DNA from: a virus
Strand: one strand, 5' to 3'
Virus record (IMG/VR): IMGVR_UViG_3300015603_000056
Coordinates: 1-20,718 of that record
DNA length: 20,718 bases
Shown: positions 3,048 to 20,475 of the stretch, piece after piece
Layout of the letters: each line of letters starts with the position of its first letter
Numbering within the stretch: position 1 is the first letter of the stretch
Translations under genes and position numbers: made by a program
The notes under the pieces: generated by a model
The model's database searches: none
What the model saw: only the letters and a program-made list of their open reading frames with translations
Told to the model about the DNA's origin: nothing

Positions 3048-4841
3048 TTATGTTTGTGCGGAGATTGCTACGCCGAAGTTTGAGTTGTTGATGTCCGTTG
3101 CCGTCCACGTCTCACCCCATAGGTCGCCTGCTCCTCCGTAGGTTGCGTAGGCTTCAGAAGACGGCCACGCTGTCGCGCTCGACTTGTCTGTTGTGCCTAT
3201 TGAACCGTCCGACTTCACGATACGAATGGCGTTGTCGATTACCGTGCCGCTTCCGATGTTTGCACGCTGTACCTCCACCACGATGCCGTTGATGGTTGAC
3301 CCTGTAGGTATTGCGAATCCGAAGTTGGTGAGCTTGAGATACTCGCTAGGAGTCAGAGTTAGTGTTGCGGTGGCGTATGACCCGTCACTCGCTTCGGCGT
3401 AGGTTGGGTTCATCCATGCGACGCTACCGACCGCTGGGTCGCTTACGGCTGTGGCTGGCGCATCAGGCCCGACCGAGGCACTTGAAATGCTCGCCGTTCC
3501 TGTGGTGGTCTTAGTTGCTGTCGTGGTGATGCGGCTTGTGCCTGTTTCGGTCTTGGTGGTCTTTATGGTGATGCGCGACACGCCTGAGAGCGTCTTTGCT
3601 GTCACGAGTCCTATACGCGATGTACCAACTATTGTCCTCGCAGTGGAGATTTGGATTCTGCTCTTGCCTGTGATGGTCTTCGCGGTGCTTACTATTACTC
3701 TTGCAACACCTGTTTCTGTTTTTGTCGTCGTGGTGCCTCCTGCGGTGTAGGTGACGTAGATGGATGCTCTTGCGTTAGATATGATGAATCCATTGTTAGT
3801 AGTAGGGCTGGTATAATTATTACTGCCAGATTGATAACTAGAGGAATATCCAGTTGCAGTATCATAATATCCATTGCTACCGTTTTGATTTACAAATCCT
3901 ATTATGTAATTATATGAAGCAGTGAGACTAGGTGAGGTTGAAAATATGGATGTTGTCCATGCTTGAGACGCATTTTCGGCTACCGCATTACCGATTGCAT
4001 TTGTTATTACATATCCAGTAGAATTGTCCCAAATTACTCCCTTGATGTTGCTCGTGGATGTATAATTGCATGATGCGGTTAGACTATTTATTGTTGCACC
4101 CCCCACATCTGAAGGGCTAGTTACGATACCGTTGAAAGACCCGTTACCGAAAGTCAGTGACTTTGCAGTTGCTCCTGCCGTCGTATACCCAAACGTCGGG
4201 TCTACCAGTATCGGATACGTTGCAGTGTCGAGAAATGTCTGAGGAATCGTGATGGTTGCTATCCCAGACTGAGCGTCGATGTTCAGGTCGCACCAGACAG
4301 TAACCCCATTCGCGTCAGTGACGAATGGGCGGTAGATATGAAAAGCCTTACCAGTGCGGTATTCAGTTCCTCCTACGGTATTGTTCTTCTTCGTCGAGTG
4401 ATAAACAGCATAGGAACCGACAATATTGTCTGGTCGGGTTTGTCCTGCTTCAATCTCCGCCTGGGTAAGGGCGGGTTGGTAGAAGAAGTCGAGTCCTTTT
4501 GTCTGGAGTGTAAACTCGACTACGTTGCTTGCTGGTTTAGAAGCGAACTCCACTTCGAACTCGTGCCCTCCATCTTCGTCTCCAGTGTCTTTCGCGTAAA
4601 TACGGGCCGTGCGATGACCGCGTTTCCAGACAGACTTTCCGTTTGTGTCGGTAGAAACATCGGCACTCGGATAATCACCATCAGCGAGACGAATGGAGAA
4701 GTTTGTCTCGTTGTTCCAGTGCTTTATTTTGAGTTGAGGGTAAAAGAGAGACTCCTTCGTGTCTCCTATTTCAACGTCAATATGCCTGTTTTGATTGGCA
4801 TGTATCGTTGCTAGTTTCTTAGGAAAGTTTGAAGCGTTCAT
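3048..4841 (-). CDS. Tail appendage protein sharing the fibre repeats
   Basis: 597 residues. The N-terminal region (about 1-215) ends with Y-P-I-L-V-D-P-T-F-G-Y, a junction common in large phage and prophage surface proteins. Residues 216-368 form a Ser/Thr/Asn-rich beta domain resembling a jelly roll. Residues 375-454 hold six repeats of the T-x-T-G-x-S-R-I type, the same unit as in the downstream 762-residue protein, and residues 455-597 form a further beta domain with conserved-looking Pro/Gly turns (starting V-G-P-D-A-P-A-T-A). No enzyme motif is visible. The next gene starts 1 base beyond its stop, so both are in one operon. Probable virion surface or fibre component; binding to host glycan is possible but unproven. 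The start at 4841 lacks a Shine-Dalgarno site. Confidence 0.55.
   Translation of the reverse strand: MNASNFPKKLATIHANQNRHIDVEIGDTKESLFYPQLKIKHWNNETNFSIRLADGDYPSADVSTDTNGKSVWKRGHRTARIYAKDTGDEDGGHEFEVEFASKPASNVVEFTLQTKGLDFFYQPALTQAEIEAGQTRPDNIVGSYAVYHSTKKNNTVGGTEYRTGKAFHIYRPFVTDANGVTVWCDLNIDAQSGIATITIPQTFLDTATYPILVDPTFGYTTAGATAKSLTFGNGSFNGIVTSPSDVGGATINSLTASCNYTSTSNIKGVIWDNSTGYVITNAIGNAVAENASQAWTTSIFSTSPSLTASYNYIIGFVNQNGSNGYYDTATGYSSSYQSGSNNYTSPTTNNGFIISNARASIYVTYTAGGTTTTKTETGVARVIVSTAKTITGKSRIQISTARTIVGTSRIGLVTAKTLSGVSRITIKTTKTETGTSRITTTATKTTTGTASISSASVGPDAPATAVSDPAVGSVAWMNPTYAEASDGSYATATLTLTPSEYLKLTNFGFAIPTGSTINGIVVEVQRANIGSGTVIDNAIRIVKSDGSIGTTDKSSATAWPSSEAYATYGGAGDLWGETWTATDINNSNFGVAISAQT
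3480..3719 (-). repeat. Six coding repeats, same family as the fibre repeats
   Basis: Residues 375-454 of the 597-residue protein consist of five 14-residue units plus a final shorter one (T-T-T-G-T-A-S-I-S). All five full units have Arg at position 7, matching the 14-residue class of the neighbouring fibre-like gene. Confidence 0.8.
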
Positions 4842-5250: not shown

Positions 5251-5305
5251 GGGATTGAAGGTTAGCTGTTGCTCGCGTATCTTGACAATATGCGAAAAAC
5301 ATTGC

Positions 5306-5860
5306 TCAGTTCTCTGCGTACTGGAGGGTCAAAACGACCGTCGCCGTATCCCCCGCGCTCGCTCCTGATGTCTGAAGCTGGGTTGTGAGGTAGTTCGTAT
5401 ATACCGTTGAACCAGTTGCTACGGCGGCTGTTGCTGCCATTGTAGCGGCTTCTGGACCAGTGATACCGAAGAACACCGCCACACCTGATGCGATTGCCGT
5501 CACTGACGTCATGTTGGTCGTGAGGTTCGTGTTCGCTGTTGCGCTTGGCGTCGTGTACGTAAGACCTGAAGTCGTAGTACACGCTGGTGCTCCCTTGAGA
5601 GTCAAACCAGTTCCGAGTGCCGTTGCGGTATGAGAGAACAGACCTGCACTGATGTTATTCCACGTTCCTGACAATTTACCGAAGTTCCAGATTTCAAAAC
5701 TGTTTGTCCCGTCGACGATAGGTGCTGCGGTGTATGCCGTAGCGTAGGTGTCTGAGGACTTCCAGTTTGTATCTGTGACTGCCGTGGTGCGGGTGGTACC
5801 TTTTGCAGGTGAACCTGCTGCCGTACCAGTGTCGCGATTAAATTCGAAGGTTGCTGCCAA
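5306..5860 (-). CDS. Putative virion protein, TTG start
   Basis: 184 residues, almost free of charged residues after position 40, very rich in Thr, Ala, Gly and Ser: a beta-rich composition typical of phage decoration or tail proteins. The C-terminus ends in a beta strand (V-V-L-T-L-Q-Y-A-E-N). The frame contains no ATG before the stop at 5882-5884, so the first plausible start is TTG at 5860 (giving M-A-A-T-F-E-F). The only alternatives upstream are a few rare codons such as ATA. The next gene upstream is 76 bases away and a TATAAT lies between them. No named family recognised; structural role inferred from composition and neighbours. Confidence 0.55.
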   Translation of the reverse strand: MAATFEFNRDTGTAAGSPAKGTTRTTAVTDTNWKSSDTYATAYTAAPIVDGTNSFEIWNFGKLSGTWNNISAGLFSHTATALGTGLTLKGAPACTTTSGLTYTTPSATANTNLTTNMTSVTAIASGVAVFFGITGPEAATMAATAAVATGSTVYTNYLTTQLQTSGASAGDTATVVLTLQYAEN

Positions 5861-15616: not shown

Positions 15617-16342
15617 TTAATTTAATCCTGCTTTTAATATACCGTACTTATCGTACAACGCTCGGTGTTTCTCGAATATATATTTATACAATTCTTGGCG
15701 ACGTGGATGCGTTGTGGCTTGTGTCATCTGTCCGTCGTGGACACGATAACGAAGAGCAATGAAGTCAGATACGTTGACGTGGTATCCAGCTGCTAACATT
15801 CTAATCCACAGCTCCCAATCCTCGAAACCATTTGTGATAATCTCGCTCTCATCATAACCTCCGACCTCTACCCACGCCTTACGAGGGAATACGGCGTTAC
15901 AGAAGATGGTATTTGTTTGCAGGAGTCTTTCTAGTGTCGGTGAAACAGTGGGGACGTTGATTATATATCTCTCATCAAATTCCATAAGTGCGCATTGAGC
16001 GATAGCCATGTCATCAGTTAAGAGTTTCATATGCTCTTCAATTCCTGCAGGAACTAACTTGTCGTCGGGGTCTAGGCACATAATGTACTCTCCTGTTGCT
16101 CTCTCAATTCCTACGTTACGAGCCGAAGAGTTCCCTCCATTCTCCTTTTCAATAAGAATGATGTTTGAATCTGTGTGTTGTGCGATAAGTTCTTTAGCGA
16201 CTTCGACAGTGTTATCTTTTGCACCGTCTGAAACGATTATTATCTCATGCGCTTTGTGAGTCTGGTTTACAACCGACTCAACGCACTCTTTTAAGTAGTG
16301 TCCGTAGGCAAACGAAGGGATGATAACGGAGACTGTTTTCAT
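15617..16342 (-). CDS. Family 2 glycosyltransferase
   Basis: 241 residues, a complete GT-A fold. It starts with V-S-V-I-I-P-S-F at residues 4-11, has the nucleotide-binding S-D-G (38-40), G-G-N-S-S-A-R-N (69-76), the metal-binding D-P-D-D (91-94), and E-D-W (174-176) as the likely catalytic-base motif. Family 2 enzymes transfer a sugar from a nucleotide-sugar donor to an acceptor; the acceptor here is unknown. The start overlaps the HNH gene stop (ATGA, 16342-16339), so its translation is coupled to an endonuclease that probably inserted later. With the other two transferases it would decorate a phage virion protein, or alter host surface sugar during infection. Confidence 0.88.
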   Translation of the reverse strand: MKTVSVIIPSFAYGHYLKECVESVVNQTHKAHEIIIVSDGAKDNTVEVAKELIAQHTDSNIILIEKENGGNSSARNVGIERATGEYIMCLDPDDKLVPAGIEEHMKLLTDDMAIAQCALMEFDERYIINVPTVSPTLERLLQTNTIFCNAVFPRKAWVEVGGYDESEIITNGFEDWELWIRMLAAGYHVNVSDFIALRYRVHDGQMTQATTHPRRQELYKYIFEKHRALYDKYGILKAGLN

Positions 16343-16866
16343 ATCTGTTTTTTTAGTCCTTTATTTCTTAAAAATGCTACGTGTCGTCTTTCTTTATCAA
16401 ATTTTAGATGGCAAGAAACACATAGCCTTTTCCAATCTTTTAAGTCTCTTCTGTACTCTCCACTTATATTAGCCCAGTGAATCTTGTATGTATTTGTAAA
16501 TCGTCTCCTACAGTCTTCACATACGATTGGCTGCCCCTTCTCTTTGACTACCCATTCATGCAATGCTCCATACCCCACATCGTCTCCTTTCCATGATGAT
16601 GCATTCTCTCCTCCAAATTGAGGAAGTTTCAAACCCTTATTCCAAGGAACCTGACCTAGATGTGAGACTCTAAACTTCTCTACGTCTTCTTCAGACCTTT
16701 TTTTGCCAAACCAATATTTACTATTGTTCTTTTTTATATTATCTTTGTGTTCTTCACTCAGTTTCCTTCCAGTAAGAGTTCTACTAATATCTGGTCTCTT
16801 CTTACCAAGTTTAGCTAATCTCATTTTTAATCTTGTTTCAGGAGTGATAGTCATTTTATAAATCAT
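16339..16866 (-). CDS. Free-standing HNH homing endonuclease with NUMOD3-like repeats
   Basis: 175 residues. The N-terminal part carries short basic helical repeats of the NUMOD3 type (G-R-K-L-S-E-E-H-K at 33-41 and G-K-K-R-S-E-E-D at 54-61), which bind DNA, followed by P-W-N-K-G (74-78). The HNH nuclease with zinc-binding C116-x-x-C119 and C149-x-x-C152 spans about 95-155, with H130 as a likely catalytic His and H153 after the last Cys. It is not inside a recognisable intron: neighbouring GT genes have natural ends. Start may be ATG at 16866 or the ATG four codons later. It shares motifs with the intron endonuclease, so both derive from the same homing family. Its 4-base overlap with the GT2 gene suggests it inserted precisely at a gene boundary. 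Confidence 0.85.
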   Translation of the reverse strand: MIYKMTITPETRLKMRLAKLGKKRPDISRTLTGRKLSEEHKDNIKKNNSKYWFGKKRSEEDVEKFRVSHLGQVPWNKGLKLPQFGGENASSWKGDDVGYGALHEWVVKEKGQPIVCEDCRRRFTNTYKIHWANISGEYRRDLKDWKRLCVSCHLKFDKERRHVAFLRNKGLKKQI

Positions 16867-18765: not shown

Positions 18766-19650
18766 TTAGACGACAGCGTTAATCAAAACACCGCCCGTCG
18801 CGCGATTCAACACAACTCCGTAGAGTATATCTGCCGTTGTGATGGTAGAAAGATACTCAGGAGCGTAGTTGGACTGAACACGCACGCCGTTCGAACCGAC
18901 CATTGACGTACCCTTTGAGCCACCAGACCCAAGAGGGGAGGTTGCCCAATGAATAGCGTCAGGGACTGCCAAAGCTGCTGCCTTACCACCGAGGACGGTA
19001 GTAATCTGTGAAGTGACGTAGACAGGCGTACCGTAGAGGTAAGCTGCAGGACGCTTCATAGATGGGTCCATAGATGGGGAGTTGACTGCAAGGGAGAACT
19101 TATCGATACCTTGAATCTGCTTCCAGAACATATTTGGAGTCACGAAGAAGGCTGCTTCCTCAAGGTCAACACCAGTTGTTTCCAAGTATGCAAGAGATGC
19201 ACGAATATCGGAATCACCGAATGTGTTTGCGGAAGAACCAACAGCATTTGTGAAGTCCTTGAAAAGGGTCACGATTGCTGTGTCGAGCTTCTTTGCGATT
19301 GCGTATCCACAGTTCTTAGCAAAGCGTTCCATAATCGAATATGAATGCTGAGCCTGAGCTGCTTCACGGTCTTCGATAGCGAACGAAGCCTCATACCACT
19401 GGTCGACAGTAAGAGTTACCTTAGTGTCAGTACCCGTGTTCAAAGTAACCATCGTCGAATTCGCTTTCGCCGATGCGGTGAACTCAGTCGTGGAAGGAGT
19501 ATACAGAGTATCTCCGCCACCACTCAATTCATCACTGCGGTCTGTGAAGAAGGCAGCTGCAACGAGTTTCGCACGATAGAACTCGTTGACTTTCTGACCC
19601 CAAACTAATGGGATGTATGCATCAAGGGATGCGCTTGTCTCTGTGTTGGT
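18766..19650 (-). CDS. Major capsid protein, exon 2 (294 residues)
   Basis: The main exon of a HK97-fold major capsid protein resembling P22/T7-like podovirus coat proteins. The frame is open well upstream of the apparent TTG start at 19527, and its extra residues (T-N-T-E-T-S-A-S-L-D-A-Y-I-P, then W-G-Q-K-V-N-E-F-Y-R-A-K-L-V, then D-R-S-D-E) are conserved-looking N-arm and helix. Later parts are equally typical: G-G-D-T-L-Y-T-P-S near residue 46 of the exon, S-F-A-I-E-D-R-E-A-A-Q-A near 87, then an E-R-F-A-K-N-C-G-Y-A-I-A-K-K-L-D spine helix. The exon begins at 19650, after the intron, because the only in-phase splice leaves codon ACC. Spliced to exon 1 the protein is 298 residues. A terminator follows 21 bases downstream. 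Confidence 0.85.
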   Translation of the reverse strand, partial: TNTETSASLDAYIPLVWGQKVNEFYRAKLVAAAFFTDRSDELSGGGDTLYTPSTTEFTASAKANSTMVTLNTGTDTKVTLTVDQWYEASFAIEDREAAQAQHSYSIMERFAKNCGYAIAKKLDTAIVTLFKDFTNAVGSSANTFGDSDIRASLAYLETTGVDLEEAAFFVTPNMFWKQIQGIDKFSLAVNSPSMDPSMKRPAAYLYGTPVYVTSQITTVLGGKAAALAVPDAIHWATSPLGSGGSKGTSMVGSNGVRVQSNYAPEYLSTITTADILYGVVLNRATGGVLINAVV

Positions 19651-20213
19651 CAGTTTTGTTGCTTAGCTCTTCCTTTATAGTTATCCGTAAGTTTATGACA
19701 TTCTTCACATAAGGTTACGCCGTTGTTTATGTTCCACAATTCATCACACTTAGATGCTTCTACAGTATTTTTAAGTTCGTGTTCCTTAATAATCTGTGAA
19801 AATCCCTTTATATGATGTGCTGTTACATATCCTCTTGCGCCACACACTTGGCAAGTCCAGTTGTCCCGCATGAAGACTTCTAATCTCCACTTTATATATT
19901 CGGGCATTCGGCGAAGTATCTTGTCTATTTTTGCGATACCTCCCTTCCAGTTCCAATGGTTCTCTCTTGCTCGTTTCCTATTATCAGTTTTATTTCTTTC
20001 TGATGTCCATGGAGCTGGTTTGCCTTTATTAGGAGCAGGTTTTCCCTTGTGGGCAATACTCAATTTCTTCTTTGTCTCTTCAGACATTGGTTTGCCCTTA
20101 TTCCAAGGGGTGAATCCTTTTTTGAAAGCATGCTCTAGCGGAGCTTTCCCCACGTGAGACATTTTCATGTTCAATTTGGCTTCATCTGTATGCTTGTATC
20201 CTTTCGGATTCAT
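19650..20213 (-). CDS. Intron-encoded HNH homing endonuclease
   Basis: 187 residues from the ATG at 20213; a start 39 bases further up at 20252 is possible but would fall within intron stem P9.1. NUMOD3-like repeats (G-K-P-M-S-E-E-T-K-K-K-L-S, 40-52; P-N-K-G-K-P, 61-66) precede the nuclease: R-D-N-W-T-C121-Q-V-C124, H133-H134-I-K, W160-N-I-N-N (161-164), C169-E-E-C172-H173. The two CxxC pairs bind zinc; H133/H134 and the N residues are the expected catalytic site. The protein would cut intron-less alleles and so spread the intron. The gene lies after the intron core, with its own leaderless promoter, and its TGA stop spans the 3' splice site (TG at 19652-19651, A at 19650). Confidence 0.88.
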   Translation of the reverse strand: MNPKGYKHTDEAKLNMKMSHVGKAPLEHAFKKGFTPWNKGKPMSEETKKKLSIAHKGKPAPNKGKPAPWTSERNKTDNRKRARENHWNWKGGIAKIDKILRRMPEYIKWRLEVFMRDNWTCQVCGARGYVTAHHIKGFSQIIKEHELKNTVEASKCDELWNINNGVTLCEECHKLTDNYKGRAKQQN

Positions 20214-20425
20214 ATACTTAGTATAACATTTTCGAAGAACTGAGATAGTCATTTCTGCTATCTTCCGTGTCTTTATTTATACACACGGCTCGGACTATTG
20301 CTTAGTATCTAGTTGATACTCCCGATTGTTTAGTCTCTGCACCTGCACGATTTCTCTGCTTGGTGAGCGTTGCCCTGTCGGGTTTTCGCCATTGATTAAA
20401 TCAGGTTTTAATTTCCCAAAAGTCT
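19651..20425 (-). ncRNA. Group I self-splicing intron in the capsid gene
   Basis: 775 bases. Conserved core elements occur in order on the minus strand: P1, exon ATTTCCT (20432-20426) with GGGAAAT (20417-20411), ending in the required U-G pair; P3, CCTGATT (20405-20399) with AATCGGG (20327-20321); P4, GGCG (20390-20387) with CGCT (20369-20366); P5, CCC with GGG (20382-20380, 20375-20373); P6, CACC with GGTG (20365-20362, 20343-20340); P7, GACTA (20335-20331, within CAGAGACTA) with TAGTC (20297-20293); P8, AGTATC with GATACT (20320-20315, 20309-20304); P9, CCGTGT with ACACGG (20288-20283, 20270-20265); P9.1, AGATAG with CTATCT. P7.1/P7.2 inserts are absent, so it is not subgroup IA. The last intron base is G (19651), with CT before it able to form P9.0. 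P10 is weak. Confidence 0.88.
20214..20228 (-). promoter_or_regulatory. Leaderless extended -10 promoter for the endonuclease
   Basis: On minus: TGTTATACT, then AAGTAT, then ATG at 20213. The 6-base spacing equals that of the promoters at 6747 and 18697. It lies after intron helix P9.1, so the nuclease can be transcribed separately from the capsid mRNA, as is common for homing endonucleases. Confidence 0.55.
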
Positions 20426-20437
20426 AGGAAATGCCAT
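20426..20437 (-). CDS. Major capsid protein, exon 1 (Met-Ala-Phe-Pro)
   Basis: Four codons, ATG GCA TTT CCT, ending at the P1 U-G splice site. Reading on without splicing meets a TAA stop after 9 codons, so an unspliced message makes only a 9-residue peptide. Joined in phase 0 to exon 2 it gives M-A-F-P-T-N-T-E-T-S, a natural capsid N-terminus. There is no Shine-Dalgarno sequence within 15 bases of the ATG; the nearest purine run (GGGGGAAG) is about 28 bases upstream. A start elsewhere in exon 1 is not possible without leaving the gap after the 20476 gene. Confidence 0.75.
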
Positions 20438-20475
20438 AGTTTAAGTTTTAATGAACTAATGGCTTCCCCCGTGAC

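Follow-up and report, generated by a model that had tools for sequence, protein, structure and literature searches.

Layout of the capsid locus

The window, meaning the whole 20,718-nt stretch of viral DNA that was analysed, carries on its minus strand a major capsid gene in two pieces, and the insertion between them has the features of a group I intron with a homing endonuclease frame. The main elements, with the evidence for each in brackets, are the following.

20426-20437, minus strand: exon 1 of the major capsid gene, ATGGCATTTCCT, codons 1-4 (sequence; intronless relatives start MAFPTNTET)
19651-20425, minus strand: group I intron, 775 nt (leave-one-out covariance model; RF00028, 23.3 bits; folding)
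18766-19650, minus strand: exon 2 of the major capsid gene, codons 5-298 and stop (PHROG 267 major head protein, E 3.8e-20; related loci)
19650-20252, minus strand: homing endonuclease frame with NUMOD3 and HNH_2 domains (Pfam, 4.1e-9 and 1.4e-7; relative in L104)

Exon 1 measures 12 nt, and exon 2, whose first letters are ACCAACAC at 19650, is preceded by a frame with stops throughout; the first-pass annotation had noted an in-frame stop there. Joined, the two exons give an open, phase-matched (0/0) protein of 298 residues with the N-terminus MAFPTNTETSASLD (at greater length, MAFPTNTETSASLDAYIPLVWGQ...), which bears out the phase match claimed earlier. This spliced N-terminus is exactly the MAFPTNTET with which intronless relatives begin, in line with the start M-A-F-P-T-N-T-E that had been predicted, and at least 25 intronless family members start with MAFPT. 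In one further relative, L055, the capsid frame starts near 3980 with ACG where others have ATG, before GCATTTCC; this is either an odd start codon or a sequence error.

The named capsid relatives of exon 2 are distant and come from cyanophages such as A-4L and Pf-WMP3, the latter being 26% identical to the window capsid over 71% of the query. A-4L is assigned to Saffermanviridae, and its genes run in the order portal, scaffold, capsid, tail tube. A scan of genome contigs for capsid relatives found none.

Ribozyme core and splice sites

The ribozyme assignment rests chiefly on a covariance model trained on ten related-phage introns, the window's own excluded. This model matches the window at 20409-20243 with 104 bits (E 5.6e-26), its sole match in the 20.7 kb, and also detects two introns absent from its training, the second intron of L083 and that of L094. 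Such a family-specific model was built because an Rfam scan of the window at the gathering threshold returned nothing. Specifically, RF00028, the check proposed in the first-pass annotation, scores 23.3 bits from 20453 to 20271 (E 0.0014) against a gathering score of 50, which is a library cut-off and not a biological definition; the second L018 intron (87.7 bits) and the L094 intron (59.6 bits) pass it. Free folding of the 851-nt transcript returns P3-P6, P8, P9, P9.1 and a P9.2 that encloses the endonuclease frame (z -5.56; 0 of 20 shuffles equally stable), and the core folded without that frame (z -4.89) forms P1 too. The helices are placed as follows.

20411-20432, minus strand: P1, exon strand 20432-20426 (ATTTCCT) with the internal guide 20417-20411 (GGGAAAT), U.G pair at the 5' splice site (compensatory change TTTCCCT/GGGGAAA in L072)
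20321-20405, minus strand: P3, 20405-20399 with 20327-20321, enclosing P4 to P6 and P7's 5' strand (11 introns show 10 distinct versions of the helix, with canonical pairing at 75 of 76 positions)
20293-20335, minus strand: P7, the G-binding helix, 20335-20331 (GACTA) with 20297-20293 (TAGTC) (A-T to G-C covariation in L016, L017 and L047)
20319-20315 with 20309-20305, minus strand: P8 (hand-set helix table)
20244-20288, minus strand: P9 (20288-20283 with 20270-20265) and P9.1 (20262-20258 with 20248-20244, tip CAGAAATG) (folding; helix table)
19665-20241, minus strand: P9.2, 20241-20234 with 19672-19665, its loop holding the endonuclease frame (folding)

The earlier reading from the letters, which had seen a four-codon frame, a P1 ending in a U.G pair and the core helices P3-P9 in order, agrees with this layout: P1, P3, P7, P8, P9 and P9.1 all lie where they are expected. 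Because the MAFFT alignment goes wrong for the window from P3 to P8, pairs were counted on hand-set helices anchored by P7. Across the introns, P1, P3, P8, P9 and P9.1 each occur as 9 to 11 distinct helices with 99-100% canonical pairs; hand-set helices favour the structure, so this count is supportive and no proof alone, and the independent test is the leave-window-out model. The U.G pair at the 5' splice site is present in all 13 introns tabulated.

At the other end, the last base of the intron is G, at 19651. P10, which pairs the guide with the 3' exon, amounts by inspection to one base pair in the window and to four or five pairs in L016, L018 and L041. The first-pass annotation had called P10 weak and the 3' site consequently somewhat uncertain; the weakness stands, and the site is not in doubt, because intronless alleles and three introns at the same site fix it. 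Specifically, the intronless L008, L009, L010, L011 and L013 start MAFPTN or MAFPTH, and their junction reads TTTCC[T/G] joined to AC[A/G], or nearly so. A search of IMG/VR for the exact spliced or empty junction gave no match, the spliced form being hardly expected there.

The intron endonuclease

The endonuclease frame has its first ATG at 20252 and a likelier one at 20213, and its TGA stop (19652-19650) spans the 3' splice site. It is an addition to the first-pass annotation, which makes no mention of it. One further element lies just upstream of the second start.

20220-20228, minus strand: extended -10-like box TGTTATACT, its end 6 nt upstream of ATG 20213; putative promoter of the endonuclease (motif score)

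The placement of this box suggests that a shorter endonuclease of 187 residues may be made from a leaderless mRNA with its own promoter. Boxes of this kind also stand 6-8 nt before the endonuclease start in L104, L072, L047, L018, L078, L082, L014 and L041. When a hexamer must score at least 5 of 6 and lie 4-9 nt upstream of the start codon, 10 of the 13 intron endonuclease genes have one, compared with 35 of 512 control frames (Fisher 1.9e-9, an optimistic value since the start codons were picked by eye, some with the box in mind).

The window also contains a second NUMOD3 endonuclease at 16339-16866 on the minus strand, between glycosyltransferase genes, which is 45% identical to the endonuclease of the codon-4 intron in L047. 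Checked for a surrounding intron, this gene looks free-standing, because the covariance model has just one match in the window, the capsid intron.

Leader hairpin and competition for exon 1

The capsid leader folds into a hairpin that takes in the same exon bases as P1.

20426-20470, minus strand: leader hairpin, 5' arm about 20470-20456, 3' arm about 20440-20426, covering exon 1 in full, start codon included (folding; shuffles)

The partner of the 5' arm, GGGGGAAGCC, is the start codon together with exon 1. Among the leaders of the window's clade, eight are equalled by only 0-5 of 200 shuffled versions, and the outer part of the hairpin covaries, with GGGGAA/TTTCC in the window, GGTA/TACC in L023 and GTGA/TCAC in L003. 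The conserved hairpin is likewise present in L041, L078, L039, L030, L027, L045, L023 and L003. Two details are new here, namely that exon 1 is one arm of a conserved, start-hiding hairpin that competes with P1, and that a -10-like box accompanies the endonuclease starts.

Because exon 1 is just 12 nt long, a single RNA segment has three mutually exclusive partners: the hairpin, the P1 guide and the initiating ribosome. On this basis splicing and translation initiation might gate each other, the endonuclease being made separately from its own leaderless promoter, an arrangement we consider unlikely although conceivable. A related reading, in which the start-codon hairpin and P1 form a regulatory switch that couples splicing with capsid translation, for example by splicing or ribosome loading opening the hairpin late in infection, appears improbable. 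It draws on the whole of exon 1 lying in the 3' arm, on the matching hairpin changes across the window's capsid clade, and on full-transcript folding that favours the hairpin over P1 while forcing P1 costs just 2 kcal/mol. However, the inner half of P1 stays paired when it is forced, intronless relatives have the hairpin too, which makes it independent of the intron, and by the shuffle test it does not reach significance in L072, L104 and L047, whose introns share the window's site. A designed switch is for these last two reasons a possibility and not a finding. The conflict between hairpin and P1 nevertheless makes a regulatory effect of splicing possible to test, and the control of late expression suggested in the first-pass annotation is a proposal of that kind.

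Introns across the capsid family

Two IMG/VR capsid scans and one site-specific pattern scan yielded 74 distinct capsid genes, 12 of which contain introns (14 introns at seven sites). The sites, with the loci and the endonuclease types or other particulars recorded for them, are listed here.

After codon 2: L094 (first exon 6 nt)
After codon 4: window, L047, L072, L104 (HNH with NUMOD3)
At the IP..W motif: L016, L017, L041 (LAGLIDADG)
One base past the IP..W site: L018
At VTL-N: L014, L078 (Endonuclease VII type)
Two codons before the VTL-N site: L082, L104
At N-V-FW: second intron of L018 (weak LAGLIDADG match)

The family introns carry HNH, LAGLIDADG and EndoVII endonucleases, and the L041 intron has lost most of its frame. 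Joining the exons around nine introns in one script restored the capsid frame in 9/9, each of these introns being preceded by U and having G as its last base; the remaining introns were joined separately, apart from the second one in L104, where the available sequence stops short of the 3' end. That intron (7235-7520 in L104) sits near VTL-N, and its endonuclease resembles that of L082. In L044, a weak match to the intron model (5293-5450, E 0.006) lies directly downstream of the capsid gene.

The comparison with L104 bears on mobility. The endonucleases of the two codon-4 introns are 69% identical over 129 residues, whereas the adjoining capsids, compared over the 72 residues with which exon 2 begins, are 51% identical, the pattern that horizontal homing would be expected to give. 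In a tree built on 71 capsid rows, the full-length genes carrying a codon-4 intron, three in all, stand apart from one another, and well-supported branches force at least two changes of the site label, with a bootstrap that had not quite settled. Some relatives have an intron at the codon-4 site and others lack one, in a distribution that simple vertical inheritance does not give. Horizontal homing is the simplest reading of the identities and the tree, and these comparisons agree with a selfish homing element.

Taken together, the sequence, the conserved core, the exact intronless alleles, the introns at the same and at other sites and the scattered codon-4 intron on the capsid tree make it almost certain that a mobile group I intron follows codon 4 of the gene for a phage major capsid protein; its splicing activity, cleavage specificity and homing are what we infer from them. 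The position after codon 4 was also the core claim of the first-pass annotation, and it holds on the PHROG 267 match, the ribozyme core, the intronless alleles and the three same-site introns. The transcript would fold into a ribozyme in which guanosine attacks directly 3' of the U in the U.G pair that closes P1, and the 12-nt exon 1 would then be joined to exon 2 in an mRNA for the 298-residue capsid protein. In turn, the endonuclease encoded in the P9.2 loop would cut intronless capsid alleles at the conserved site between MAFP and T, and repair would copy the intron into the cut allele.

A decayed intron, with a capsid made from a downstream TTG at 19527 (253 aa) or a defective phage, is very improbable: the TTG frame does exist, but it is without conserved residues, among them WG, N-F-Y and FFTDRS, found in relatives, which begin at MAFPT or similar, and the core, splice sites and endonuclease are intact. 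That assembly put the insertion into the gene as an artefact or chimera is scarcely credible, for although the window is a virus record out of a metagenome collection, different introns lie at exactly the codon-4 site in three contigs from other samples. An intein was rejected because of the in-frame stops, and a group II intron because there is no sign of one and the group I core fits.

Known capsid introns and significance

Group I introns in capsid genes are already known, and what stands out in the spliced, mobile intron proposed here is the 12-nt first exon and the way introns crowd into a single gene family. The closest parallel in which splicing is proved, by RT-PCR and N-terminal sequencing, is the capsid intron of the mycobacteriophage LittleE (PMC3706429), which like that of the window is a probable group I intron in the major capsid gene with an endonuclease frame, a U preceding the 5' site and a terminal G (PMC3706429). 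It differs in its mid-gene insertion (nt 496, PMC11855218), its LAGLIDADG-like frame on the opposite strand and its different phage group. The lactococcal phage Tuc2009 also has a group I intron in a capsid gene, according to its citation in PMC3706429. Recurrent group I introns in the major capsid gene, as in the window's family, are reported for the Delta and Zeta groups of crAss-like phages, with one capsid gene in five fragments (PMC7886860); these are large gut phages of Bacteroidetes, and the parts of that report consulted do not describe a first exon of 6-12 nt (PMC7886860). The I-PfoP3I intron of cyanophage Pf-WMP3 shares with the window an HNH endonuclease in a group I intron, whereas it lies in a DNA polymerase gene and is described as group IA2 (PMC3428280); in the window intron, P7 and P3 are separated by just 3 nt, which leaves no room for P7.1/P7.2.

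In bacterial protein genes, translation and ribozyme folding conflict, and ribosomes can chaperone T4 introns (PMC3984707). The 12-nt exon of the window would be an extreme case of this conflict, since first exons of 12 and 6 nt put splicing within the landing site of the ribosome. For annotation, the family is a warning that gene callers will overlook or wrongly place the N-terminus in capsid genes of this kind. Beyond this, 12 intron-bearing genes among 74, with seven sites and three endonuclease types, constitute a natural series on how homing elements pick essential genes, and the small first exons allow tests of how translation and ribozyme folding are reconciled under coupled transcription and translation.
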